Shown here: in pieces, positions 5,829 to 22,309 of the stretch
Numbering within the stretch: the first letter of the stretch is position 1
Layout: the number at the start of each line of letters is the position of its first letter
Source of the DNA: a virus
Direction: 5' to 3' (one strand)
IMG/VR virus record: IMGVR_UViG_3300006752_000203
Coordinates: 1-25,169 of that record
DNA length: 25,169 nt
Made by a program: the position numbers and the translations under genes
Notes under the pieces: generated by a model
What the model saw: only the letters and a program-made list of their open reading frames with translations
Databases searched by the model: none
What the model was told of the DNA's origin: nothing

Positions 5829-8800
5829 TTATGAGATTCCGAGCGACTGCGCTTTTTTGATGACCTTAACAAAAGTAGCATGCTCTTTCTGTTCTAGCTG
5901 TGCAATGCGTTGCAATTTTTCGTCTTGCGTTAAACTTTTTGAGCTTTCGATCTTTGCTTTATGAGTAGCGATCTTTTTCTTAAATGCATCGGCGTATTTA
6001 ATATTTCCGGACAGTGCCAGTAGATCCCGCATATTTCTGTTGGCTTCTGCGAACTGTTTAGGTCCCGCTATTTTTGCAGCTTTTGTTGCACGAACTGCTA
6101 TTTTATTCGCTTCCCGAACTTGGTAGTACAAATTCTTAACTCGTGAGCCGTGGGTGGATGACCTGTAGAACCGGTTCGCAATTGGCATTTTATTAGGATC
6201 AAAAGTCCCGTAGTCTTTCTCTTCAGAAAATGCAGGAAACACGAGACTCCCGAACATCATATTAATTATCTGCCCGGGACCTCCCGCATAGCCAAGAAGT
6301 AAGTGCTCCATTTGACTACCCGAGATATCAAACTTTAAGTCAGTCCCCTCAAGACCTTTAAGCGGTTGATTGCCAAACATGCCACCTACAGACCCTTTAA
6401 CTTGGTCACTACCTCCAAGAAGACTGTTGAGACCTTCGGATAAAGCAGTCCAATGCTCTTGTGTTCTTTTCGGGTCCATCATATGAGCAGGCTTTACAGC
6501 TTCATACGGGCGGTCCTCATTTCTTATAGGCATGCCCATAAAGTTTTGATTCGCCCATAACTCAGCCATAGGTTTCCCGACTGTTGGGATCATAGCTGTC
6601 GCTAAAGTAGAGCCTCCTATTGGGTTAAAACCGTTAAGAGTAGCATTTAAGTTTCTAGTTAGGAAATCAACAGCCCCTGCACCACCTCTACCCATTACAT
6701 ATTTTGCAAAAACATCGCCGGCTGTTTGCCCGAGGGTCCAGAACATGTTGTATCCGAGAGGGAGAGGTACGCCAAAGTAACCAGTGTTTTTATCACGAGG
6801 ATCGCCGATGATCGCCATAGTGTCGCGTCTGAATTCGGAGATCGTGTCATAATCAGGTAAAGGTTCGTCATCGTCATCATCCATTAACCTGTTAAAAATA
6901 TTAAGTGCAAAAGACGCGCCTGCGATGCCTAGAATAAGCTTCTTCCTCTCTCGGGGGGTACGCTTTTTAAAGGTAGACATCATTCGATGCATTGAGTTCA
7001 TAGAAGCACCGAAGAAGACGAATAAGGAGCCCATGGTCTGAGTTAGCTCGCCTTTTTGATTGAAGTCCACGGTTACATTTCTTGAAATTACTGCCGCCTG
7101 GTGAGTTGTAAAACCGGCTTCAACAGCGGAAGCAAAAGCAGACATCCTGATGGAGTTTTCTAGAGCTGTGTTAACGGTATCTAAATAGTTAACAAAAGAG
7201 CTCCATTTTTTCCGCATCCCTTTTCTAGACTTACCGGTGTCTTCTTTCATCTCGTCAATTAATTCAGGTATTGATTTATGCCTAAAATAACCAACCTTTG
7301 CCCCGGCTTGTTTTGCGAACTGGTAAACCTTGGCGTAGTCACCGTCCTTTATAAGTTTCTTGGCGTACTCTTCGGATGTTAACTCGCCTGGGTCGAGCTC
7401 TATAATTTCACCTTTGAAGTTTTTCCGCTCGGCCAATGTAATATGTTTAATAAAACCACCCAATCGCTTAGGGTTGAAAGCTGCTTTTACAAACTGTTTT
7501 TTCTCATCTTCGGTTAAATGTATAAACATAGTCCCCAAATCTCTGATAAAGTTGGGGATCATGAAAGCGGGGTTTTTGGATGTAAACATACTCGCCATAA
7601 ACCGAGTTACGCTGTTGACCCCTTTAAGAAAGGTCGGCAGCGCCTCGTAGCGTAGATTTTTCACGGATCTTGCAACCCTACTACCCGCCATGTTATTTCT
7701 AAATTTTATATATTGAGGAACCCCGTTTTTACGGTAAACGAATACATGATTGTCGTTCTGAAACTCGGTGTTAATTTCTCGGGTTACCATTTTGAAACCC
7801 TCAACTTCTTCACCGTCTACAGTTATAGACTTTGTGCTTATTGTGTAGTCTTTCTTGGTCTGAATCGGGTTGAACTCTTTTTCGAAAATAGCGTCTTTGC
7901 CCTCGAACATTTCACGGGTCGATTCAATAACACTGGGATCCTTTTTTATGATTTCCTTGATTTGATCAGGGAGTTCGACCAAAGGTAGCCCGCTTACGTC
8001 TTTGCTATTGTGATAAGCTACGGCTCGGAATATTTCAAAAGCCGCACCGAACGAGTTGGATACTTCGTTTTTAGCCCCGCGTATTCCGCTTTGAAAGTAT
8101 TGATCTTGCGAAACCGCGAATACCATCTCGGGGTTGGGTCCGAGGGTGTCTTCTTTCCTACCGAAAGCCCCTTTAAAAAGAAATTTATTTTTAGGCTGAT
8201 CCCAAGCTCTTCCCGATGCACTGCTCGATTTACCTAAAACATCGTAAGCATCTTCTTTATCGTAAAGCTTTTGGGTTTCCTGCGCACCCTCAAAGCCCTG
8301 CATTGGGGCGTAAGAGTAATTATTCTCCTTACCGTTACGCATATACATGATTTTAGAACCACCATCCTTCTTCCAGTTAAAAGAGGAGCTGGCTTGAACC
8401 ATAGCTGTGACCTCGTCAAGAGCTTCAGTTTTTTGGATAAGCTGAGAGGCTGATCGAATATCAAGAGACTCGCGGTTCATGTCGTAGAATTTCTGCAACG
8501 GCTCTCTTTCATCCTTTAAGAAATTCATAAAGGCTTCATCAGCCTCCATTTTCTGAACAACTTGGATTGCTACATCTGTTGAAATTCCGCTCAAAGAATC
8601 TCCGCGCTTTTCAAGCATTTCCTTGATTTCGTTTTTCGTGACTTCGTCTTTTGCGTCATTCATTAACTCTGCATAAAGACTTTTTAAATGGTTGTTTCTA
8701 CTGGGTGCGACTCTTGCAATCAGATATTCACCGAACTGCTCGGTAGTAATTCCATGATCATTAAGAGCATCTCGAATAGGCTCAAAATATCTCAAATTAG

Positions 8801-11800
8801 CAGTTTTAATCTGCTCGTCAGTTTTTCCATAGTAGAGGTGCCACAGACCTCTGACATCTAAGGAGTCTAGTAATTTCTGATCCGTCACACCCATATCTTT
8901 AAGTGCATCACTTATGAACTTAGTGCCGGCCCTGGACTGATCAATGAATGAAGCTATCAAATCTCCAGACTTAAACATGTCTTTTTTCTTTTCCCAAAAC
9001 TCTTTAAGCTGGTCTCTACCCTCGCCGTCAAAACCTACCTTATTTGCCATCTTAGTTAAAAGAAGAGAGCTTTGCGAATAATCGGTTGGAATACCTGATG
9101 ATAGTGCGTAACTGGAGCCGAGGGCTTGCGTATTCGAGCCTAAAATCCTTGCTTTAAATTTTGGGTAGTTTGGGTGCTCTTTTATGCCTTTAGACCATTT
9201 GTAAACTAAGTAGTCTTTTTGCGGAGGCATAGGCATACCGAATGCGTCCCAGAGACGCTCGTCGGTTCGAAACTCTTTCAATACCTTATTTAAAGTAAGC
9301 TCTTTACCACCCTTCTTGAGCTCGAACAGTTTCCGCATCGTTTCAGTACCCTCAAGCTTCCGAGATACGGGATCGTTTTGTGTAGCGAAAGACTGAGGGA
9401 TCAGATCTGTGTCTTTAAGCTGTTTTAAATCCTCATCGGATGCGGTCTCTTGCTCAAGTTGTACAGTCTTGGCCTGGTCCTTGTTTACTACAGAATCTGT
9501 TTCCTGGTTATCCATAGAACCTTCAGGAGCGTCACTCTTAATAAAGCTCTCAAAGGAGGATGTGTGAATCGTAGGATCCTGTTGCAAAACATTAGACGCA
9601 TTCAACGAATTTTTGGAAGACTCTTCTTCATCAAACCCTCGACCAACGGCCAACATTACACGGCCTGCGTCATAGACTGCTTGAATCACAGGCTGAACCT
9701 GTTTAACCATAGCGTCCACATCAGGGTAACCATTTTTCCAGAGAGTGTTGGGTTCGGTAACTCGTCGAGATGTTTTACGAATAGCCCTTTTCCAAGGTGC
9801 TTGGTTTGAAGGTACTACCCCTGCTGGAATATCTTCCTGTGCTATGTAGTCAGCGTTGTTATAATTTACCTGATCACCTTTTTTATAAGAACTTTCTGAC
9901 GACCACACTGGCGATAAATTTATTGTACGATCAATAGTTTCCGACTGATTTTTCCAACCACTCTTCTTTGGGTCCGGAGCAGGTACAAACTCAAAATCCT
10001 TTTCGATCTTTAATAACTTGTAGACCTCAAGCATGAAGTCATTCCATACATAGGGAAGAATACCTCCAGCAGGACCTCCGGGAAGCTGTTTAAAGTTTCC
10101 ATCATCTACCTGAGAAGACGGAGTAAATTGTAACGATAAGAGAGCGTCTTTTAATCCAGCCTTACCCTTTTTTGTTCCTATATTATCCAGAAGATACCGA
10201 ACAAATTGCGCAGGGCTAACAGAGTTTCCAGAGGATACACCAACTGTCCCCATAGAATCCTGAGCCACCATTACATTACGGATTTCGTTAATTAGCTCAG
10301 GCTTGTTCTTGATGAAATCTTCGCGGGCAATCTTTTCGGTCTCCTCATCAATTACATGACCGTTTGCCTTTTTCCATAGACCTTTGACTCTTTTGACTTT
10401 CAGCTTTTTACCATCGGCCCTTGTTATTTCAAATACAGCGATGTCCTGATACTTTTCATCCTGCATCACTTCAAAGGACTTCTTTACAATTGCTTCGTCT
10501 AGGCGTCTTTCTAAATCTCTCGCCAGGTCTGGGTTAGCCTGCTCAGAGCCAGAACCTGTGCCGAAGGTCACACGCTCCGGATCAAACTTATCAGCTCTTC
10601 CCTTTGCGAAAAGAGACAGTACATCAACACCTTCGTCCGCACTACCACGAGCAAATGCACCATGCCCATTACCGGATTTTATAGTACTGGTTGCTTTCTC
10701 TCCTTGGGCAAAGAATTCATACTCATCAGGAGAGGTGACGCTTGCGCCCCACTCTTTTGCCGCCTGCACTGTTTCTTCTGCGGTCTTCGCTTCGTATTGT
10801 TCTTCGTAAGCTTTTTGGGATTCGTTTTGGAGTTTTTCAAATTCTTCCTTAGCCTTGGCTATATCTTCCTCGGTTATACTTTCGTCCTTCTTCAGCTCTC
10901 TTACTACAGAGTATAGGTTGTTACGAAAGGCCGCTTTTTTTGCCGGGTCTAATTTATTCCAGGCTTCTACACTAGAGGACCAGGCTGGATCTTTTGAAAG
11001 GGTTTTCTTTTTAGTACGACCGACTCCAGGGCCTTGATCTGAGGCAATATCCTCTGCCCATATACCAATAATCTTTTTAACAGCTTCCGCTTTTTCCTGA
11101 TAAAAGAAATATTCCGTCAGGCTCTGGCTCCACTGCTTTCCGCCATGTAACTGCGGGAAGAAGCCACCAGTCTCTTCACCTTGGAAAGACCCGAGCTCAT
11201 CGTAGTCAAAGAACAATGCTTTTAACTGCTGCCTTAATCGAGCAACACTACGCTCCGCTCCTGCTCTCTGCTCGGAACCTTCTTCCATATCCTTAATGAG
11301 TTTTTCATACTCCTCGATATCCTTGGTCATCTCATGAGCTCTTCGCTCAATAAGTTGGTGGTATCTTTGTTGCTTGGATCCGCGAATATCACGGTCGTCA
11401 AGGATTTCGAGAGATCTGCCAGTAGCTAACTCATATACAGTCATCTCGGGGAGAGTCAGACGGCTAAGCTCACCGCTGGTAATATTTCGGTTATTTATAC
11501 CGTCTGATTTATCCTGCTCCTTTAATCGAAATAACATCATGGCTGCCACGGAGGTGCCATTTTCAGACTGCATGAATATACGGTCTCCTTCTTTATACCT
11601 ACGACCCCCTATTGTTTCAGGAAGTGCCGCGGATGCACGAACAGCGTCCAACATTTCGGTATACTCCTTGACTGTTTTATTACCGAACCAATCGAGCGTA
11701 GCGGTCATTTTACGACCTTTTTCAAAAGGATTAAAGCTTTGGTCTATGCCTGAGCCGAGAGAGGTTGGGTCTTTTTGGAGTTGAGCAAGTATTTTGTCTC

Positions 11801-14800
11801 GCTCTTCTTGCATATCGGTGAAAATTTGAACTTCTTCGGGTGTTGTTTTAACCCCTTGCGTATACTTTTTTACTATATCTTTAAGGCGTTCGTTACTTAC
11901 TTTCCCGGTCTTTGTAAAGGAGTTCCACTCTTCTTCGGAGATTGGATCCATGAATTTTGGATCCTGCTGCTCGGATTGGGACTCAACAAAGGAATCTAAC
12001 GCATTTAAAGATTCTTCTAATAGTGTACGACCGTTGGGATCAAATTTAAGTATCTTTGAAAGAAGATCTAGTATTTCAGTAAACAAGGATTCTTTAACCG
12101 GTGTGTCGGTTTCTATCTTAGATAAAAACTTTTGCAGTTCTTTATCCGTATAAAGCATAGCTAGGAACTCATCAAACTGAGTTAAGTAAAAAGGAACTTG
12201 TTTTTCCGAAATAGAATTACCGTAAGAATCTTTGTTTGGCCGAATCGTTTTGTCACTCTGCCAACCCTTTCTAGCTTTCTTCCACGCTCCATATAAACGC
12301 TGCATGTTTTCATTTGAAAATACAGGAGTCCGTTTTTCTTTGGTGTAGTTGGTGGACTCTACTACTGTTATTGCATGCATCATTTCGTGCAAGATAGTCA
12401 GACCCGTTCCACCGGGATACACTACTACACCCCCAGGATCGGCATTCTTCTCTTTATTATAGAAGTAAGCTCCTCGGTCAATTTGATCGGACACTTCATT
12501 GATAGCACCAACTCTTACCTTTTTAAGGATGCCCGCTTTTTTTAAACGTGCGGCTAACGCCTTTTCTAACTCCGTTCCGTTGCTTATTAAAATGTCTAAA
12601 GCTTCATCGCTTGAGATCCCGCCTTTTGCTGTCTGCTTAAGACCATTATAATTAGACACCTCTGTTCTGGATTTTATAAGTGCCTTAGCTTTGAGTATAG
12701 ATATTGGATCCGCATTCTCCGTCGGTACCCCTTTTAACTCTTTACCAATTTCTTTAGCGGTCTTACCAAACTTTTCCAGGACGAGTGCGTCTAGATCGGT
12801 TTTAATAATGTTTAATGCTCGGTTGTCTGCACCGTATAAAACGGCGCGGCCGTTTACATCAACCTCAAGACGGACCTGATCTCCGTTCCTCTCAAAAGTT
12901 TTTTCGGAGATAGATATAGGGTCAATCATTGGGCCCGGATCGACTTCTACATTCGCCTCGGCCTTCGGCTTTTGGCCCTCGGCCTTTGTCTCTGGCTCTG
13001 GGCTGTTTAGTCTCCAGTTTGTGTATTTGAAAAGATATGCCTGAGAATCAGAGAGTCCCTTTACAGTAACCCACTTTTTTGCACCAGGCTTACCTACCTG
13101 CATCCATATAGGGGTTTCTCTGTCCAAGCTAGCAAGTTGTCCCAGTGTATACCTCTCAAAATTTTCTTTTTGAAAACCTTTGTTTTCTTCTGTTGGTGCG
13201 CTCCCGGGGCCTACATATTTGTGATATATAAAATGCGGGGTGTCCATCCAATCAATTGTTGCTTTCTCGGGCTCGATTGCATCGCGATATTCGCGGAGCA
13301 TGGTAAGCTTCTTATTGATCTCGCTGATCTCAGCATCAATCGCTTTGGTATCGGCTTTGGCCTTTGGCTTTGGAGCTTCGGTCTTTGGAGCTTTGGCCTT
13401 TGGAGCTGCTTTCTTTGCGGGGGCTCCGTCAGATTTATTCTGTTTATACTGAATGAATTTAGGGTTGAGCCCCTTTTCTTTAGTCGCTGCTTCTTTAGCT
13501 TGGGCGTACTGTCTAGATAAATAACTGTGGGTTTTAGCGTTGTACTGCTGAATGAAGTCTCCCTCTTTCTTCTTTTTTGATCCTTTTGCACTTCGAACTG
13601 CTTCTTTCTTAGGGCCAAACTTGCTGCCGTCCCACTCACGATACTGAATTTTATCACCGACTCGATTTACAACGACTACGATCTTGTGTGTGTATTTATA
13701 ATTCTTCGACTGAGCGGAGCCCAAAGCTTTTACTTTCTCATCAAATACTTTTTGGGTGATACCTCCGTTTAATCTCTGCTTTTCGAGATTTAAGAACTCT
13801 TTTCGGGTTTCAAGCTCAGCGATACGTGTGTCGATGGAGCCGACCGCAAAAGCGACCTGTCCCTCGTATTTTGCAAATGCTTCGGCAACACGCTGGCCGT
13901 CCGGTGCTTTACCGCTGGTCACATCTGCTAAGTCGAAGGCTGCAAGTGCACTGGAGAAGATAGCGCTATCCATCAGGCCGTTAAGGCCCATCATCTCGGC
14001 TATGATCTGAGCGTGAGAGATATCGCTTTCAGACACCTCTCTTTTGCTGTCTTTGTTTTGCTGCTTGAGCTCTTCAAATAGCTTTTCCTTAATCTTGATC
14101 GACTCCTTATTAAAAGCTTCTTGGTCCATAACCAGCTTTTTAAGGTCTGCTACTTTTTTACTTACATCTTTAAGGTTTTTTAACTCTTGCGTAAAAAACT
14201 CTTTTTGAGCTTTCTCCGCCTCGGCCTTTGTGTTGAATAATCGAGGTGCTCGGGGTTTTCGGGTTCCTGGCTGTCTTATTATAAGTTCAAACTTGTCGCC
14301 CTTCTCCTTAATTTCCGCACCCGGCATAAGATACTGAATCGGGATGACCCGGGATTCAAGTTGATCTTGTGCTCTATCGACGTCTTTCTCAATCTTTGCA
14401 ACCTTACGAGTCTTAGTTGCTTTTACTTCATTGGTTAGTTTTTCCTTTTCAGAAAGGTCAACCTTTGGAGTTACTTCGGACTCAACTGCTTTTTCGACAG
14501 GTTTAACTCTACCTCTCTCGTCAAGAATCGGTTTGGGTTTTTCTTTAGAGCCTTCTTTAGGTTTTGTCTCTTCAACTTCGATGAGCTGTTTAACTCCCTC
14601 TTGAGCATCTGCTCCTTTAAGACCTTCATATACCTCGGCGGTTGCAACGGCGTCTTCGGCGGCAACTCGGCCTTCAGCAATAGGAGTTGCCATTTCTTCA
14701 AGCTCAAGCTTTGTATATGCGGACATATCTGTAGGCAGAATCTTTTTGTCGAGCATCTTATTAACTGCTTCTGCTACCTGCTTTGCTCGGGCTTTACCTT

Positions 14801-17800
14801 CTGTTTGCGCGACTCTCTTCACTTTACGCATCAAAAAGTTTAAAGCTTCGTCATCACCCATTTGTTGAAGCGGCGTTTCTTTATTGAGAAACAACTTCGC
14901 CATTCCCGGGCGTTCATCATAGCACTCACCAAATCGGGGTGTGTTTTGCTTGCTGTACCCGTTGGCACTGTAACCCATGCTCTGAAGTATTTTTTGGTTA
15001 AGCCTAAACTGCTGCTCTTTTGTACCACCTGTTGTCTTACCACCCATGAATTTCTCCATCGAAGGGTGTAGTACTTTGGTTAAGAAATTTTGGTACTCGG
15101 TTTTAACGGACGAATCTATATTCCTACCAGCAAGAAGACTGGCCCATTGATAAGAAAACCACTCTTCGGCCCTAATCTCTGGAGTCATCCTTTTATTGTT
15201 CCAAGCTTTATCAACCTGTGCTTTTTGTGCTTCGTCAAGCTGGCTATATTTTTGCTCTGGTATTTTTAATGTGTACTGAGTAAATGCGTCTTTCTGAGCA
15301 TCTATACCAATACCTTCATACAGGCTCATAAGCTCTTCTTTACTTAACATGAGCTTTCGAGCTAAGTGACCAGACTCATGAAGAAATACACCGAGAGGGT
15401 CTTTGCCTATTTTATTACGGTTTAAGTAAATTGCATATGTGCCTGTATCTACATCCTCATGGAAGGACCCTTCCATCTCTTTGTCAGAAAAAGGCGTCCT
15501 GTCAGCTACAACAATCTTTAAGTCTGTCATAGCTTCTGGGTTTAGTTCGTAAAGACGAGCCATTAAATCAGTTAGTACATTGCTGGCGTTTTCTTGTTCT
15601 TGTGCGGTTTCGAAGTTTCCTTCGCTTACTACATGAGACGCGGCTGATTGAGCGTTGTTAAAAGAGTTAAACTTATTTCTAAAGCCTGCGAGATTTACGA
15701 TACCAGTCTTCCCTGTTTCTGTATTCTCCACATTCTCATAATCAAATGGCGTACTAGTCAGATCTAGATTGCGGGTAGAGGCTACTTGATAACCGCCTCC
15801 AAGAAGACCCGGCCCCAATCCTATAATACCTTCTGCTACAATAGCGTTATGATCCCAAGCCTCTCCTGGTTCTTTACTCCAAGCTTGTCCAAGAAACTCA
15901 CCACCCATACCAAGTGCCGCGTCAGTGCCAACTTCAAGCGCCGCGTTACCCGCTCTTTGGAAAGCGGTGAATTTTGGGTAAGTCTGCTTTGATCGTTTCC
16001 ACGCAGCCCCGTCGATTAACTTCCCGCCTTTTATCGCGTTACCCCCATGATGCAAAGCAGCAGCAACGCGGCTCCCCATTAAACCCGAAACAGAGTCTAA
16101 TAACGCAATAGGAAGACCTTTTTTTAAAGCCTTCTCTTTAATCGCGTCCCTGGTTATCTCATTATTCCAGGCCGCGGCAAAAACCTTTGGGTTTTTATAA
16201 TCGATATTAAGCTCCTGCATGCCTTCTAAAATCATGCCGGAATATTCAAGGACGAAAGATGCTACACCCCAGTTAGCTCTAGCGGCTAAACTAGCACCTG
16301 ATATAGCCCCACCGGTAACAGTGACCGGAGCTAAAGGCCCGCCTGCTAGACCGGCCGCTCCACCTACTGCCGCTGCTCCTGGGATAGTTTTAAAACCGGT
16401 TCTTACATAAGCGGGTAAAAAGGATGAAAGGGATTCTACGAATAACTCAGGTATCGCTTCTGTATTATCAAAAAGTAGATTGCTTACAGAATCCCAAAAA
16501 CCTTTGGATTTATACTGCTGAAACTTTTTAGCTGCTGAGCTTGTAGGTATCTCACCTAGCTCTTCCGATATCTCAATAAACTTCTCAAAATCTGATTGGT
16601 CGGCTGCGTTTGTGAAAAAATCGTATGAGTACTCACTCATCTCGTTCATTTTCAAGCCGCGGCGAAATGCATTTGCGATGCTTTCGGACATCCGGGAAAA
16701 GAATCCTTTTTTCTCAGTCTGCTCGACAATCTCATCGGTCAAGCCAAACTCCGCGGCAAGCTGTATAGATTTATCAAAAGCTGCTTTAGAGCTTTCCATA
16801 GCTGATTTATCGGATTCTTTTTTGCCGTTAGTAAGCCAATTTATTTGAGCGTCTTCGTAATTACTGTAACTACCGCGGACGGCCTGCATAATCTTAGCTA
16901 CATTTAAGGACTCTTCACCACCCAGCTCATTTAATGCCTGCCCAATAGGCACACCTTTGTATTCTTTGATCCCCATCTTCTGCATCTCTTCTATATCGAG
17001 AAGATCTACATCTTTTCGGGATAGCCCTACAGGGCGGCCATCTAGCAAACCACTTTGAGAAAATAATATACCACGGTCTCTAAGCTGGCGTTCTTGTGCC
17101 ACAGTCTGACGACGACTCATAAAGCCGTCTATATCACCGCGCATCGCGGCTTCTAATCTTTTCTGCTGTCTCTGAGTATTACTTTTTACGAAACCTGGTG
17201 TCTTTGCTCGCGGATCTGTTTTTTCAAGATTTATGATCTCCCCGGTATTGATATCAGCGATAGGGTCTTCGAACTCAAAGCCGCTTAATAACTTATCTGT
17301 AGCTCTTTTGCTTTTCGGTTTTGCGGACCTAGCTTTTAATCTCTGGTCCAATTGCTCACGCATTGGAATAGGTATACTAGTCAAACCTTCGAACAACTTA
17401 TACTCTTCCTGCTTGGCTTGATCGGCTACTGCCCTCCTTCTTTCTTTTTCGGTTTTTAACCGTAAAAACTGATCTCGAATACCGTTAGGCTGATTCCACC
17501 CGACATACTTACCTAGTCTAGCCTTAGCTAGCTTTTTAGATTCAGACTCACCGCCAAAAAACCCGTCCTCTTCCTGACTAGCTTTAAGATCATTCTGGTA
17601 AAGTGCATCTAAACTTGAGGCATACTCGTCGTCGCTTTCGAACTCACCGAACTCGTCAAACTGCTTATAAAACGGTAAGAATTTATTTTCTTTGAAGTCG
17701 TCGTATAATTTTTCGTAATGCTTTGCCGATCTTTCGTTTTCTCTAGCAAACTGGCTAATCTGACCGTGATACTTTTTGGTTTGGTCATAAACATCGAGAC

Positions 17801-18020
17801 CCTCATCAAAAGGGTCTTGATAATTTGATTGAGGGGCTTCCTCTATTTCAGGTTGTACATATTGAGGTTGAACGACTGAGCTCTGCTTTCGCTGTATCTG
17901 CCCACCGAAGGGTTGATATTGCCTTTGTACAGGCTTGCTTAAGAACTGCTCAAAACCAGAACCTTTACCTTCAGGGCTGTAGTCGTTCGCTCCTAAATCA
18001 ACTTGATCGTCAATCGACAT
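5829..18020 (-). CDS. Giant polyvalent-type virion/ejection protein, 4063 aa, with two HExxH zincin motifs
   Basis: One uninterrupted frame of 12.2 kb fills almost half the window. In order: a Gln/Pro-rich N-terminus; long charged helices; a Gly/Ala-rich hydrophobic stretch at about 544-600 that could insert into a membrane; HESGH at 881-885 with a possible third zinc ligand in EEWFSYQW near 952; Lys/Pro/Ala linkers near 1150-1180, 1533-1565 and 1677-1700; HEMMH at 1878-1882 followed by DEFLAMLYTDKELQKFL near 1951; a CBM5/12-like module at about 2703-2745; YLIARVAPSRNNHL near 3097; a hydrophobic region around 3480-3720 (KNPAFMIPNFIRD, then TVDFNQKGELTQTM and an Asp run) resembling the large polyvalent protein-associated domain numbered 38; and a coiled-coil C-terminus. 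Polyvalent proteins are known to join proteases and other effectors that enter the cell with phage DNA. I infer a packaged, ejected protein. AGGA lies 14 bases before the ATG. Domain boundaries are by eye. Confidence 0.85.
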   Translation of the reverse strand: MSIDDQVDLGANDYSPEGKGSGFEQFLSKPVQRQYQPFGGQIQRKQSSVVQPQYVQPEIEEAPQSNYQDPFDEGLDVYDQTKKYHGQISQFARENERSAKHYEKLYDDFKENKFLPFYKQFDEFGEFESDDEYASSLDALYQNDLKASQEEDGFFGGESESKKLAKARLGKYVGWNQPNGIRDQFLRLKTEKERRRAVADQAKQEEYKLFEGLTSIPIPMREQLDQRLKARSAKPKSKRATDKLLSGFEFEDPIADINTGEIINLEKTDPRAKTPGFVKSNTQRQQKRLEAAMRGDIDGFMSRRQTVAQERQLRDRGILFSQSGLLDGRPVGLSRKDVDLLDIEEMQKMGIKEYKGVPIGQALNELGGEESLNVAKIMQAVRGSYSNYEDAQINWLTNGKKESDKSAMESSKAAFDKSIQLAAEFGLTDEIVEQTEKKGFFSRMSESIANAFRRGLKMNEMSEYSYDFFTNAADQSDFEKFIEISEELGEIPTSSAAKKFQQYKSKGFWDSVSNLLFDNTEAIPELFVESLSSFLPAYVRTGFKTIPGAAAVGGAAGLAGGPLAPVTVTGGAISGASLAARANWGVASFVLEYSGMILEGMQELNIDYKNPKVFAAAWNNEITRDAIKEKALKKGLPIALLDSVSGLMGSRVAAALHHGGNAIKGGKLIDGAAWKRSKQTYPKFTAFQRAGNAALEVGTDAALGMGGEFLGQAWSKEPGEAWDHNAIVAEGIIGLGPGLLGGGYQVASTRNLDLTSTPFDYENVENTETGKTGIVNLAGFRNKFNSFNNAQSAASHVVSEGNFETAQEQENASNVLTDLMARLYELNPEAMTDLKIVVADRTPFSDKEMEGSFHEDVDTGTYAIYLNRNKIGKDPLGVFLHESGHLARKLMLSKEELMSLYEGIGIDAQKDAFTQYTLKIPEQKYSQLDEAQKAQVDKAWNNKRMTPEIRAEEWFSYQWASLLAGRNIDSSVKTEYQNFLTKVLHPSMEKFMGGKTTGGTKEQQFRLNQKILQSMGYSANGYSKQNTPRFGECYDERPGMAKLFLNKETPLQQMGDDEALNFLMRKVKRVAQTEGKARAKQVAEAVNKMLDKKILPTDMSAYTKLELEEMATPIAEGRVAAEDAVATAEVYEGLKGADAQEGVKQLIEVEETKPKEGSKEKPKPILDERGRVKPVEKAVESEVTPKVDLSEKEKLTNEVKATKTRKVAKIEKDVDRAQDQLESRVIPIQYLMPGAEIKEKGDKFELIIRQPGTRKPRAPRLFNTKAEAEKAQKEFFTQELKNLKDVSKKVADLKKLVMDQEAFNKESIKIKEKLFEELKQQNKDSKREVSESDISHAQIIAEMMGLNGLMDSAIFSSALAAFDLADVTSGKAPDGQRVAEAFAKYEGQVAFAVGSIDTRIAELETRKEFLNLEKQRLNGGITQKVFDEKVKALGSAQSKNYKYTHKIVVVVNRVGDKIQYREWDGSKFGPKKEAVRSAKGSKKKKEGDFIQQYNAKTHSYLSRQYAQAKEAATKEKGLNPKFIQYKQNKSDGAPAKKAAPKAKAPKTEAPKPKAKADTKAIDAEISEINKKLTMLREYRDAIEPEKATIDWMDTPHFIYHKYVGPGSAPTEENKGFQKENFERYTLGQLASLDRETPIWMQVGKPGAKKWVTVKGLSDSQAYLFKYTNWRLNSPEPETKAEGQKPKAEANVEVDPGPMIDPISISEKTFERNGDQVRLEVDVNGRAVLYGADNRALNIIKTDLDALVLEKFGKTAKEIGKELKGVPTENADPISILKAKALIKSRTEVSNYNGLKQTAKGGISSDEALDILISNGTELEKALAARLKKAGILKKVRVGAINEVSDQIDRGAYFYNKEKNADPGGVVVYPGGTGLTILHEMMHAITVVESTNYTKEKRTPVFSNENMQRLYGAWKKARKGWQSDKTIRPNKDSYGNSISEKQVPFYLTQFDEFLAMLYTDKELQKFLSKIETDTPVKESLFTEILDLLSKILKFDPNGRTLLEESLNALDSFVESQSEQQDPKFMDPISEEEWNSFTKTGKVSNERLKDIVKKYTQGVKTTPEEVQIFTDMQEERDKILAQLQKDPTSLGSGIDQSFNPFEKGRKMTATLDWFGNKTVKEYTEMLDAVRASAALPETIGGRRYKEGDRIFMQSENGTSVAAMMLFRLKEQDKSDGINNRNITSGELSRLTLPEMTVYELATGRSLEILDDRDIRGSKQQRYHQLIERRAHEMTKDIEEYEKLIKDMEEGSEQRAGAERSVARLRQQLKALFFDYDELGSFQGEETGGFFPQLHGGKQWSQSLTEYFFYQEKAEAVKKIIGIWAEDIASDQGPGVGRTKKKTLSKDPAWSSSVEAWNKLDPAKKAAFRNNLYSVVRELKKDESITEEDIAKAKEEFEKLQNESQKAYEEQYEAKTAEETVQAAKEWGASVTSPDEYEFFAQGEKATSTIKSGNGHGAFARGSADEGVDVLSLFAKGRADKFDPERVTFGTGSGSEQANPDLARDLERRLDEAIVKKSFEVMQDEKYQDIAVFEITRADGKKLKVKRVKGLWKKANGHVIDEETEKIAREDFIKNKPELINEIRNVMVAQDSMGTVGVSSGNSVSPAQFVRYLLDNIGTKKGKAGLKDALLSLQFTPSSQVDDGNFKQLPGGPAGGILPYVWNDFMLEVYKLLKIEKDFEFVPAPDPKKSGWKNQSETIDRTINLSPVWSSESSYKKGDQVNYNNADYIAQEDIPAGVVPSNQAPWKRAIRKTSRRVTEPNTLWKNGYPDVDAMVKQVQPVIQAVYDAGRVMLAVGRGFDEEESSKNSLNASNVLQQDPTIHTSSFESFIKSDAPEGSMDNQETDSVVNKDQAKTVQLEQETASDEDLKQLKDTDLIPQSFATQNDPVSRKLEGTETMRKLFELKKGGKELTLNKVLKEFRTDERLWDAFGMPMPPQKDYLVYKWSKGIKEHPNYPKFKARILGSNTQALGSSYALSSGIPTDYSQSSLLLTKMANKVGFDGEGRDQLKEFWEKKKDMFKSGDLIASFIDQSRAGTKFISDALKDMGVTDQKLLDSLDVRGLWHLYYGKTDEQIKTANLRYFEPIRDALNDHGITTEQFGEYLIARVAPSRNNHLKSLYAELMNDAKDEVTKNEIKEMLEKRGDSLSGISTDVAIQVVQKMEADEAFMNFLKDEREPLQKFYDMNRESLDIRSASQLIQKTEALDEVTAMVQASSSFNWKKDGGSKIMYMRNGKENNYSYAPMQGFEGAQETQKLYDKEDAYDVLGKSSSASGRAWDQPKNKFLFKGAFGRKEDTLGPNPEMVFAVSQDQYFQSGIRGAKNEVSNSFGAAFEIFRAVAYHNSKDVSGLPLVELPDQIKEIIKKDPSVIESTREMFEGKDAIFEKEFNPIQTKKDYTISTKSITVDGEEVEGFKMVTREINTEFQNDNHVFVYRKNGVPQYIKFRNNMAGSRVARSVKNLRYEALPTFLKGVNSVTRFMASMFTSKNPAFMIPNFIRDLGTMFIHLTEDEKKQFVKAAFNPKRLGGFIKHITLAERKNFKGEIIELDPGELTSEEYAKKLIKDGDYAKVYQFAKQAGAKVGYFRHKSIPELIDEMKEDTGKSRKGMRKKWSSFVNYLDTVNTALENSIRMSAFASAVEAGFTTHQAAVISRNVTVDFNQKGELTQTMGSLFVFFGASMNSMHRMMSTFKKRTPRERKKLILGIAGASFALNIFNRLMDDDDDEPLPDYDTISEFRRDTMAIIGDPRDKNTGYFGVPLPLGYNMFWTLGQTAGDVFAKYVMGRGGAGAVDFLTRNLNATLNGFNPIGGSTLATAMIPTVGKPMAELWANQNFMGMPIRNEDRPYEAVKPAHMMDPKRTQEHWTALSEGLNSLLGGSDQVKGSVGGMFGNQPLKGLEGTDLKFDISGSQMEHLLLGYAGGPGQIINMMFGSLVFPAFSEEKDYGTFDPNKMPIANRFYRSSTHGSRVKNLYYQVREANKIAVRATKAAKIAGPKQFAEANRNMRDLLALSGNIKYADAFKKKIATHKAKIESSKSLTQDEKLQRIAQLEQKEHATFVKVIKKAQSLGIS

Positions 18021-18032
18021 GGCTGATTTGGG

Positions 18033-19829
18033 TTATCCTAGTTGGTCTAACAAAGACTGAGCTCTATTAAGCCGGCCAGAGGCCCGATCAATAAGAGGCT
18101 CGATACCACCATCGTCAAGTGCATCCATACCTCTTTTTTTCCTAAACCGGTTTAACTCTTCTATTTTTTTATTTTGAGGTAAGCTCTGATAAGCTTTCAT
18201 ACCTTGGTCTGCTAAAGGGGTTTCTGTAGGCCCGTCTGGTATATACCTATTTAGACCTCTTTCCTGTGCCTGACTGCTTAAATGATTTTGTCGTGTCTCA
18301 AAAAGCTGGTTGTCTAAATACGCACCTCTTATACCACCGTGTTTTTGAATCTCGCTGGGGGAAAAAGTCCTGTCTCCGTTGCGGTGATATTGAAAAGGGT
18401 TGTAAGCTTTGCCGCGATTAGCTTTCGCTGCTCCATAGTTCCTATAACCTATAAGTTTAGGTCTTCCGTTTTCAGTCCCGTAAACCGGCATAAGTCTGTC
18501 AAAATCTGTGTCTTTTGATTCTGGATTAGCCTGCTCGGGTGCTGGAGCTGGAGCTGGTGCTGGTGCTGGAGCGGCGGGCTCGCCATATAAATCAAACGGG
18601 TTTACCGGTTCTGGTTCTGGTGCTGGTGCCGGTGCCGGTACGGTGGGCCTTCCGCGATTAAACTCTAATATAGGATCCCCGTCTTCTAAAACCCGTTGTA
18701 GTTTGTTTTTAGGTCTTTCTTCAGTCAGCCTTTTTTCTACTGGAGATCTGCTATCGAAAACACCGTTTTTATAATATTTAGTATTTCCACCCTGATTAAA
18801 CTTAAAAAGAGGCTCGTCCCCGTCCAAAATTCGCTGAAGCTTATTTCTATCGTCTCTTTTCTGTTGGGGGGCTGGGCCCAAACTGCCGTCGGCTATACCT
18901 GCTTCGATCATGTCGGATTCTGAATCATATTCTGGTGGTAAGAACCCACCTGATTCGCCTTGTTCTGGGACAATTATATTGCTTTCAACCGCCTCTTTTT
19001 TCGGACCGTAAAACTCAACATACCGCTTACGCATTTCACGCTTTTCATTTTCTGGCAGTTCTGACCACCTTCGGCCATCGGCACGTCCTGTGGGGCTGTA
19101 CTTCTCCCACATCTCAGCTAATACATTTTCTTGATGAGCCCGGGACGCATCCATACGGTCCTGCTTTTTTTGCGCCGCTATCTCATTTTGTGTGCGGCGA
19201 ATAGCTTCGGATCGTTCAAGTTTAGTTAACTGATCATCCTCTCCGAAAACACGCTGAGTTGTTGCTGCGGTGGATTTTGCTGCGGCTGCGCTTCCTCCAG
19301 GATTGGGATTGGGATTATCCAGTGTTTGAGTCGCGGCGGGAGCGGGAGCGGGAGCGGGAGCGGGAGCTGCTTCTGCTTTCTGCTCTTCTGTACGGTAGTC
19401 TGGTTTAAACACTTTACCCTTATTTCGATACTCTTCTTCTGAAAAAACATCTTTCGGTGCTTCGCTAGCTTCTTTCGATCCTTCAAGACCGTAATCTGCC
19501 GAAGCCATTTTTTCAAGGTCTCGCAGACTTGGTTTAGCTCCTGGAAATATTGTATCTGGAATCTTGTATGTTGGGTAAAAAGAGGAGTCTATATTGTCTC
19601 CTAAAAACCTTTGCGTAGAATTTATCAAACTCTCAGCAAAACCTGGGGTGTAATCTACCGCCCCACCCTCCGGTATAGTGCCGGGAAAAAGATCATACAC
19701 GGATGCGACCCCCTGTTCTTCGGCGTACTCGGCTAAAGCTTTACGAGCTACCTCGGGATTTTCTTTTAACCAGCGAGATGCTATAAATGCATCCATTTTA
19801 CCATCGCGTAGAACTTTTTCGTAATCCAT
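18033..19829 (-). CDS. Unknown 598-aa protein with Pro-Ala linkers, possible virion protein
   Basis: I do not recognise a family. The N-terminal 150 residues look folded. A Pro-Ala linker follows at 154-166, then a charged helical segment (about 200-285). A motif of the form NKLQRxL-GDxxLxFN appears twice (329-346 and 375-392). Two more Pro-Ala linkers lie at about 397-408 and 418-432, and the C-terminal 160 residues are basic and Gln/Asn-rich. The linkers suggest folded modules on flexible tethers. It lies between the large terminase (23-base gap) and the giant gene (12-base gap). No Shine-Dalgarno sequence precedes its ATG; the leader is pyrimidine-rich (CTACTCTTCTGCT). Its position next to the giant gene hints at a partner or scaffold role in the virion, but this is inference only. 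Confidence 0.75.
   Translation of the reverse strand: MDYEKVLRDGKMDAFIASRWLKENPEVARKALAEYAEEQGVASVYDLFPGTIPEGGAVDYTPGFAESLINSTQRFLGDNIDSSFYPTYKIPDTIFPGAKPSLRDLEKMASADYGLEGSKEASEAPKDVFSEEEYRNKGKVFKPDYRTEEQKAEAAPAPAPAPAPAATQTLDNPNPNPGGSAAAAKSTAATTQRVFGEDDQLTKLERSEAIRRTQNEIAAQKKQDRMDASRAHQENVLAEMWEKYSPTGRADGRRWSELPENEKREMRKRYVEFYGPKKEAVESNIIVPEQGESGGFLPPEYDSESDMIEAGIADGSLGPAPQQKRDDRNKLQRILDGDEPLFKFNQGGNTKYYKNGVFDSRSPVEKRLTEERPKNKLQRVLEDGDPILEFNRGRPTVPAPAPAPEPEPVNPFDLYGEPAAPAPAPAPAPAPEQANPESKDTDFDRLMPVYGTENGRPKLIGYRNYGAAKANRGKAYNPFQYHRNGDRTFSPSEIQKHGGIRGAYLDNQLFETRQNHLSSQAQERGLNRYIPDGPTETPLADQGMKAYQSLPQNKKIEELNRFRKKRGMDALDDGGIEPLIDRASGRLNRAQSLLDQLG
18540..18642. repeat. Low-complexity Pro-Ala coding tracts
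   Basis: Two adjacent triplet/hexamer-type tracts (about 18540-18573 and 18606-18642) are built from GGAGCT, GGTGCT and GGTGCC units read as Ala-Pro codons on the minus strand. They form the second and third Pro-Ala linkers of the 598-residue protein. The units are partly diverged, unlike the purer tract at 19338. Confidence 0.8.
19338..19367. repeat. GGGAGC x5 hexanucleotide microsatellite
   Basis: Five perfect tandem copies of GGGAGC lie in frame and encode the first Ala-Pro linker of the 598-residue protein. Gain or loss of one unit would add or remove two residues without a frameshift. Confidence 0.95.
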
Positions 19830-19852
19830 AGCAGAAGAGTAGATATACAGAA

Positions 19853-21613
19853 TTACGGTCTCAACCGCTTGTGATTCTTCTTAAGCGATGAAAGAGGTAC
19901 CCGCATGAAGCCATCCGGGCATAAAAGGCTCGGATTTTTATGAAGCATGCGGTTTGTAATCTTCTTCTTCTTTGGAAGCTGGTACTTGCTAGCCTGGTCG
20001 ATATTGTAAATAGCGATAGCCGCGGCCAATACATGGTCGTCGTGATGGCCCGGGGCCGCTTCCGGCTTACCGCGATCATTAATGATAAAGGTTTTGAGCT
20101 CTTTTAATACATCAATATCAGGGATATCAAAATTCTCATCAATCAGCTCAGCCGCCATGTGATCAATAATGGTCTTTCGGGTAATCTTATCAGTAGACCA
20201 ACCAAAACTTTTTTCAACCATACCCATTGAATCATTATATTTTCGACGGCGATACACGCTTAAACCCATTTCCAGCAAATACTTTAATAACGCCAACCCG
20301 GAATTGTTTACCTCAGGAACTACAAAGGCATTACCATACCACCGGGCCGCTCCCTCAACTTCGTGCGCCAATATCCCGATATCTAAACGGCTGTGATGCA
20401 GAGCGACCAAGCGGGGAACATGCCAGTCACCATGCCAATCCTCAAACGGTGCTTTCCATACTTGCACAGAGTGAAAGTCTGGATCCGCCGCAAGACCCTG
20501 CATTTGTTGGTCTTCTCCGGTACAGGTGTCTACAGATATAATATAACGGGAGTCATACTCTGGTTCTTCGTATACTTTCCACATACCACCCTTGTCAGGT
20601 GTAAAACTGCCCGATTTTCCGTCATTCTGAACGCTCATGGTACCAGTTTTAAACTTTATGTTTTCCGCAGCCTTCATCATGTTTTCTATATTCGCTACAT
20701 GAAAACGAGGACGGGAACTCATTAAGAAACATTCGTCGGGATCACTTGGATACTCCTGGCGAAATTTGCTAATATCACCATTGCATTTGTCCTGAAGTAC
20801 ACGCCTTCTCCAATTGAGTTGTTCGTAATTTACATCAAAACGCTCCATTTCAGACTTCTCGTCCTCTGTCATCGTGTCGATAAAGTCCTGTTTCATCGAC
20901 TCGTTCTCAAAAGGTATAACGGAATCATCAAATTCATACCATGCCGCAAAAATCTTAGCCCATTCATTGTCCTGCACCCAGGTACGATAGAACCAGCCGT
21001 TTGGACCGTTCGGGGTAGAGTCAGCAACAACAAGGGATATATTATCGCCGTCATATAATGATTGGAGATATCCCAATGCCGGGTCCCGCTCACCTTGCAT
21101 AGGCCAGAAGGCAACCTCCGTCATATTCCCGACCTGAATGGTACCGGATCGACCAGCGTTTTTGGAACCCGCGGTTTCCTTTCCGTAATTACTGCGGCTT
21201 TTTAATTTGATCAAATCCGCAAGGCTACCGCCCTCGGCCAATGACCCCCCGCTTTCGTCCCAGGGAAATAGGTCGTATTCCGCATATCGACGGTATATCT
21301 CGAAAACCTTATCACTTGTTCCACTGATATCACCCATGAGGCTCCCGCTAAGGTTTTCATGCTTGCGCATATGGTGATATGTCAAAGCCTGAGCACAGGT
21401 ACTCGCACCCTTTTGCCGAGGTTTCTATATGATCATCTTGCACGGCTTATCCTCGATCTGGCACTTTCGATAATGCGCGAACATTCGCTTCTGCAAAGTA
21501 TTCGGCACGGGTTTTATGTCCCTGCCCCGCTTGTCCTTAATTACACCAAAGGTGCTAAACCACACCTCGGGATCAATACGGATTAAGTCTTGAAGTTGAT
21601 CGGAGCTTTGCAT
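19853..21613 (-). CDS. terL: Terminase large subunit (packaging ATPase/nuclease), interrupted by in-frame TAG
   Basis: This is the motor that pumps DNA into the capsid and cuts it. Read through the TAG it is 586 residues, a normal length for the family. The ATG at 21611-21613 shares one base with the upstream TAA, and GGAAG lies just upstream. Residue 63 is the TAG, directly followed by KPRQKGAST, the deviant P-loop of this family. MTEVAFW (E166) is the Walker B/catalytic segment, and ADSTPNGPNGWFY resembles the coupling motif. The nuclease acidic residues are D362 in ISVDTCTGED, E434 in VVPEVN and D525/D526 in GHHDDHV. Both sides of the TAG are in the same frame, so no base is missing. As read, translation yields a 62-residue stub. 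A TTG at 21385 or ATG at 21370 could restart translation, but both lie past the P-loop and would give an ATPase-defective product. It ends in TAA, 23 bases before the next gene. Confidence 0.9.
21425..21427 (-). other. In-frame amber codon within terL
   Basis: The minus-strand codons around it read ATC ATA TAG AAA CCT CGG CAA. The protein context is KMII-stop-KPRQKGAST, where related terminases usually have a hydrophobic residue such as Leu. TTG (Leu) or TAT/TAC (Tyr) are one substitution away. The base after the stop is A. Confidence 0.9.
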
Positions 21614-21885
21614 TAGCACTTCCAGCGACGGCGGGCTGCTTTGCCCCTCTCGCCAGTCCAGCTTTTACTTCTTGCGCAAAATGCTTTGCGTCGCTTAGCA
21701 GCCTTGCTTCCAGGTTTAACCTTGCCGGTGACAGCGGTCTTGAGCTTAGAGCCGGGATTAGCACGACGATATGCAGCGACACCTTTTTTGGTCATACCAG
21801 CACCAGCTTTGACAGTCCTGTAATTAGCTCCTTTACCCTTAGTCGTCTTCCGTATGGGTTTACTAGGCTTTCTTTTTGTAGGCAT
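21613..21885 (-). CDS. Small basic protein with FCARS and C-terminal RRRWKC, 90 aa
   Basis: This very basic protein (start MPTKRKPSKPIRK) contains GAGMTKKGVAAYRRANPG, then LKTAVTGKVKPGSKAAKRRK, FCARS, and ends ARRRWKC. I recognise this pattern from small proteins in marine phages and viruses, where it is annotated only as a domain of unknown function (possibly DUF6321, from memory). Charge suggests nucleic-acid binding; two Cys, one at the very C-terminus, could bind metal or form a bridge. Its ATG overlaps the upstream TAA by one base and its TAA overlaps the terL ATG by one base, so the trio and terL are probably translated as a coupled series. AAGG lies about nine bases before the start. 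Confidence 0.85.
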   Translation of the reverse strand: MPTKRKPSKPIRKTTKGKGANYRTVKAGAGMTKKGVAAYRRANPGSKLKTAVTGKVKPGSKAAKRRKAFCARSKSWTGERGKAARRRWKC

Positions 21886-22142
21886 TATTTCTTACCTTTC
21901 TTTCGGATTGATGATGTTCGTTTCCCCATACCGACACGCTTTTTTTCAGCGACGACAGCTTTCTTTCGTTTGCCGACGCCTTTCCAGGTGACGGGGGTCT
22001 TAGATGAAACTTTTTTGCTCGGACGGCACTTCTTGACACCCTTGTTTTTTGAGGAGCCGCACGGGTTCCCTTTTTCGTCCTTCCATTTTTCTTTGAACCA
22101 ACGCTTTAGTGCTGCGCCCTTTGCTGTCTTCCTAACCGCCAT
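21885..22142 (-). CDS. Small basic protein with KRWFKEKW / PCG / CRPSKKVSSKTPVTW motif, 85 aa
   Basis: The frame could open at 22178, but the ATG at 22140-22142 (MAVRKTAKG) is preferred. It starts two bases after the upstream stop and is preceded by GGAAGG, whereas the earlier start would overlap the previous gene by 34 bases. The core KGAALKRWFKEKWKDEKGNPCG followed by KKCRPSKKVSSKTPVTW recurs in small basic proteins of marine phages and other aquatic viruses, of unknown function to me. Two Cys (in NPCG and KKCRPS) may form a zinc or redox site. The C-terminal 30 residues are almost entirely Lys/Arg/Gly/Ser. A role in DNA condensation or packaging is plausible from charge and from its place beside terL. 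Confidence 0.85.
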   Translation of the reverse strand: MAVRKTAKGAALKRWFKEKWKDEKGNPCGSSKNKGVKKCRPSKKVSSKTPVTWKGVGKRKKAVVAEKKRVGMGKRTSSIRKKGKK

Positions 22143-22144
22143 CT

Positions 22145-22309
22145 TTACTTTTTCCTTCCAGCACCTTTCTTTCGGCACTTAGCGATAGCCCCGCTTGCAT
22201 AGGCACTGGGGAATACCTTGTAGCTCGCTTTTACCTTTTGATAACAAGCGTCTTTCTTTGTCTTTGTGGAACTAGACTTTTTTGCGGGTTTCTTTTTTCT
22301 TGCTGGCAT
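22145..22309 (-). CDS. Small basic protein with CYxKVKxxYKVFPSAYASGAIAKCRK motif, 54 aa
   Basis: It begins at an ATG at 22307-22309, reads MPARKKKPAKKSSSTKTK and then the conserved-looking core DACYQKVKASYKVFPSAY and ASGAIAKCRKKG, and ends GRKK before a TAA at 22145-22147. The CYxKVK-PSAYASGA-KCRK core is one I recall from many small proteins in marine phage and giant-virus genomes, so I regard it as real despite its size. Function is unknown. No Shine-Dalgarno sequence is evident (upstream is AACAAGTTAAACC), and an AT-rich 81-base gap precedes it, so this may be the first gene of a transcript. Confidence 0.8.
   Translation of the reverse strand: MPARKKKPAKKSSSTKTKKDACYQKVKASYKVFPSAYASGAIAKCRKKGAGRKK

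Follow-up and report, generated by a model that had tools for sequence, protein, structure and literature searches.

In phAss-1, which recodes TAG (genetic code 15), TAG occurs in 41 open reading frames (ORFs) and interrupts the large terminase (TerL) in frame; the TerL TAGs stand at Gln positions, three tRNA-Sup(CTA) genes are present and the recoding is shared by relatives (PMC10607447). The TerL analysed here also contains an in-frame TAG, and its nearest relative among annotated cultured phages is the TerL of Roseobacter phage CRP-7 (MK613349), at about 25% identity. These two proteins are alike in their strand and P-loop pattern, AIILKARQQGIST in CRP-7 against MIIxKPRQKGAST (x = TAG) here, KARQQGIST of the former being the counterpart of KPRQKGAST, and a TEVAFW / SEVAFW motif is common to both.

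The terL gene and its surroundings

The analysed stretch of DNA, referred to as the window, is a whole IMG/VR virus record of 25,169 bases, with a G+C content of 44.6%, zero N and nearly all genes on the minus strand. The TAG is codon 63 of terL, counted from the ATG at 21613 (Table 1), and the frame is open on either side of it (...EDKPCKMII*KPRQKGASTCAQ...), so that with TAG read as a residue both halves fuse into a single 586-residue frame. This frame is not a chance one, because its 586 residues can be aligned over their whole length with 80 homologues and its TAG is the only internal stop of the contig (1 in about 7,950 codons, 12 gene frames). No stop interrupts any of the other gene frames, which speaks for one lesion and not for a recoded or decaying genome. 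The preliminary description had located the stop at this codon, with TerL continuous on both sides and KPRQKGAST next to it, and its coordinates proved correct; its exclusion of an indel is borne out as well, the reading frame being exact across the TAG.

Table 1. Coordinates of terL and associated features in the window
Feature	Position	Strand	Remarks
terL, large terminase (T4 gp17-like)	19853..21613	-	586 codons + stop; intact save TAG; assigned by PHROG, Foldseek and CRP-7 alignment
In-frame TAG, codon 63 of terL	21425..21427	-	CTA on + strand; replaces invariant Leu, abuts KPRQKGAST
KPRQKGAST, Walker A / P-loop-like motif	21398..21424	-	immediately 3' of TAG; invariant in 31-sequence alignment
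Longest downstream ORF with possible start (TTG 21385), 510 aa	19853..21385	-	starts past P-loop motif
90-aa basic protein gene, upstream of terL	21613..21885	-	TAA overlaps terL ATG (TAATG)

The TerL protein matches PHROG terminase families, including PHROG 24361, while a PDB sequence search with it gave no match. An AlphaFold2 model built from 31 sequences gave a confident prediction only for the C-terminal nuclease domain, that of the N-terminal ATPase domain being of low confidence. Foldseek with this model returned T4 gp17 as the top match (3cpe, E 1.6e-9), followed by the large-terminase nucleases of RB49 and G20c, and the hits to 3cpe, 3c6a and 5m1q (E 1e-6 to 1e-9) identify an RNase H-like nuclease domain at the C-terminus. 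Judged by its letters, KPRQKGAST provides the N-terminal P-loop ATPase motif expected of such a protein.

Several observations concern the neighbourhood of terL. Upstream of it lie a GTG-started 97-aa ORF (21885-22178, minus strand) and an endolysin gene of the cell wall hydrolase type (PF07486; 23368-23928, minus strand). The 97-aa ORF is probably over-extended; since relatives have stops at residues 3 and 8, it likely begins at the ATG of MAVRK instead. A single intact ORF of 4,063 aa (5829-18020, minus strand) located between the portal gene and a 598-aa gene occupies about half of the contig. In the gene at 18033-19829 (minus strand), codons 297-305 contain clustered amino-acid differences from the closest record, L006, in an otherwise near-identical stretch.

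Codon 63 in relatives and divergence from the closest record

A scan of viral_contigs yielded 136 TerL relatives, 80 of which were kept for comparison (77-99.6% amino-acid identity to the window TerL). Leu occupies the codon-63 column in 80/80 of them and a stop in none, and the Leu codons used are CTG (24), TTA (23), TTG (22), CTA (8), CTT (2) and CTC (1). One residue encoded by six different codons indicates strong selection for Leu, with no trace of a conserved stop. The MAG-derived relative L162 (72% identity) has Leu at this column too; this sequence (CALIKS010000014.1) sits in a MAG labelled uncultured archaeon, and contamination through binning of a phage contig is likely. CRP-7 TerL likewise has Leu there, so the conservation of this residue immediately in front of the P-loop motif extends to a relative as distant as that. 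A degenerate pattern for TAG in the codon-63 context was found in 0 contigs of viral_contigs, and an exact-context DNA search around codon 63 did not find a second copy of the window haplotype. Internal stops in the TerL of relatives occur only at residue 585, the natural C-terminus. Altogether 310 of the 586 TerL columns are invariant, and the TAG is the sole private change of the window at an otherwise invariant column; apart from it, terL is under strong purifying selection.

L006 is 98.4-98.7% identical to the window at the nucleotide level over the shared parts. Their TerL genes differ in 22 codons: 20 synonymous differences, one substitution and the TAG. The substitution (residue 254) is private to L006, the window carrying the common Ser. 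The differences are unevenly spread, with 13 sites (0.8%) in 19826-21379 and 9 of 119 sites (7.6%) in 21380-21498, where L006 ends, and in the latter part every one apart from the TAG base falls on a third codon position. This pattern points to a change of haplotype between the window and L006 around 21380, no more than about 50 bp from the TAG. The junction may be an assembly switch, but natural recombination would look alike. With the TAG so close to a haplotype junction, strain mixing makes a consensus or assembly error likelier there. The identity of another record, L005, to the window is 99% in 21626-21925 but falls to 81-92% over most of the other blocks in this region, which indicates that the clade is mosaic.

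The portal protein, compared across 76 sequences, has a single private change in the window, the conservative Y152F. A generally poor quality of the contig was considered as a cause and rejected, given this one change and the intactness of the other genes.

Weighing the explanations of the TAG

The private TAG is absent from all of 81 relatives, and so it almost certainly reflects either a mistake of sequencing or assembly or a dead mutant copy, rather than a new mode of gene reading. We regard a one-base error of the consensus in an otherwise normal terL as the probable explanation. The TAG would then be a private lesion introduced by base calling, by PCR of the library or by the mixing of strains in the assembly, and in the phage itself codon 63 would encode Leu and terL an ordinary full-length terminase. 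The sequences themselves show that this contig alone departs from Leu, and by a single base; the origin of the change in sequencing or assembly, rather than in the virus, is what we infer, and not a measured quantity. An error is preferred over a real allele on general grounds: in a phage population that replicates, the consensus is not expected to be a lethal allele. Against it stands the rest of the contig, where a high error rate is not evident, neither in the stop-free gene frames nor in the portal gene. A literature search on assembly base errors found nothing.

A genuine nonsense mutation that does not propagate, carried by a defective genome in a mixed population or by a just-inactivated provirus, and surviving by complementation or not at all, is possible but clearly less likely than a consensus error. 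The TAG is one base away from the Leu codon carried by the nearest relatives, stops make up 4.5% of all single-base changes in terL, and the conservation of the rest of the gene is as expected for a very recent change. However, a lethal allele of an essential gene should be rare when the phage replicates and is unlikely to become the consensus unless coverage was very low, and the contig bears no further decay. Base-call error and nonsense mutant were both among the options of the preliminary description and agree with all the results, every relative having Leu at this column and none TAG; its third option, a read-through or suppressed codon, fails the test that the description itself had set for it.

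According to that third explanation an amino acid is inserted at the TAG, with the aid of a phage or host suppressor tRNA or through programmed readthrough, and the output of full-length motor is thereby kept low. In its favour, the frame continues on either side of the TAG, and the contig covers only a portion of a genome that reaches about 69 kb in the largest relatives, so that a tRNA gene may lie in the missing portion. Nevertheless, we consider this explanation very unlikely. The homologue alignment has TAG at this position in 0/80 relatives, whereas a programmed readthrough stop would be expected to recur there. The window has no tRNA genes, and a suppressor tRNA with the CUA anticodon was found neither in it nor in the 20 related contigs (15-69 kb) searched; the only tRNAs of these are tRNA-Ala(tgc) and tRNA-Thr(ggt), in two of the contigs. 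Rather than being spread over many genes, as under recoding, TAG is a lone internal stop, and rather than being avoided as a terminator it serves the group as a normal one: it ends terL in four relatives (L065, L069, L073 and L074) and other genes in nine, in one case with 76 codons before the next stop. In the window itself gene g2 ends in TAG, with a further stop within a few codons. The conserved residue is Leu, not Gln. The 100 nt 3' of the TAG fold no better than shuffled sequences (z -0.17, pseudoknots left out), giving no sign of a stimulatory RNA structure. TAG recoding was thus rejected on account of the single TAG, the Leu column and the use of TAG as a terminator, and programmed readthrough on account of the non-conserved stop and the unremarkable RNA fold. 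Slimmer still is the chance that, when this strain infects its natural host, a host or phage suppressor not seen here lets translation pass the TAG, and that the amount of full-length packaging motor is throttled in this way.

Finally, a split gene, with a 62-residue peptide followed by a terminase restarted downstream, can practically be dismissed: the TTG-started ORF does follow the TAG, but its start lies past the P-loop motif and therefore the re-initiation product would be devoid of this motif, while terL is a single continuous gene in all relatives. The 62-residue peptide, which is the product made without readthrough, has no P-loop motif either and could not package DNA.

The biological weight of the finding is small. 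Its value lies in a caution, that related sequences should be consulted before a lone in-frame stop in one metagenomic contig is put down to recoding. Were the TAG fixed in a phage that replicates, this would suggest that amber suppression occurs naturally in a presumably marine host, but we see no support for it.

Comparison with known systems

The resemblance to phAss-1 consists in the interruption of TerL by an in-frame TAG in both. In contrast to that phage, the window has one internal TAG, which replaces Leu and occurs in none of its relatives, and no suppressor tRNA was seen. From T4 gp17-type terminases it differs in having TAG where all relatives have Leu. We found no feature separating it from the sporadic nonsense errors of metagenome-assembled viral contigs, which likewise show one private base change while the rest of the ORF is conserved.
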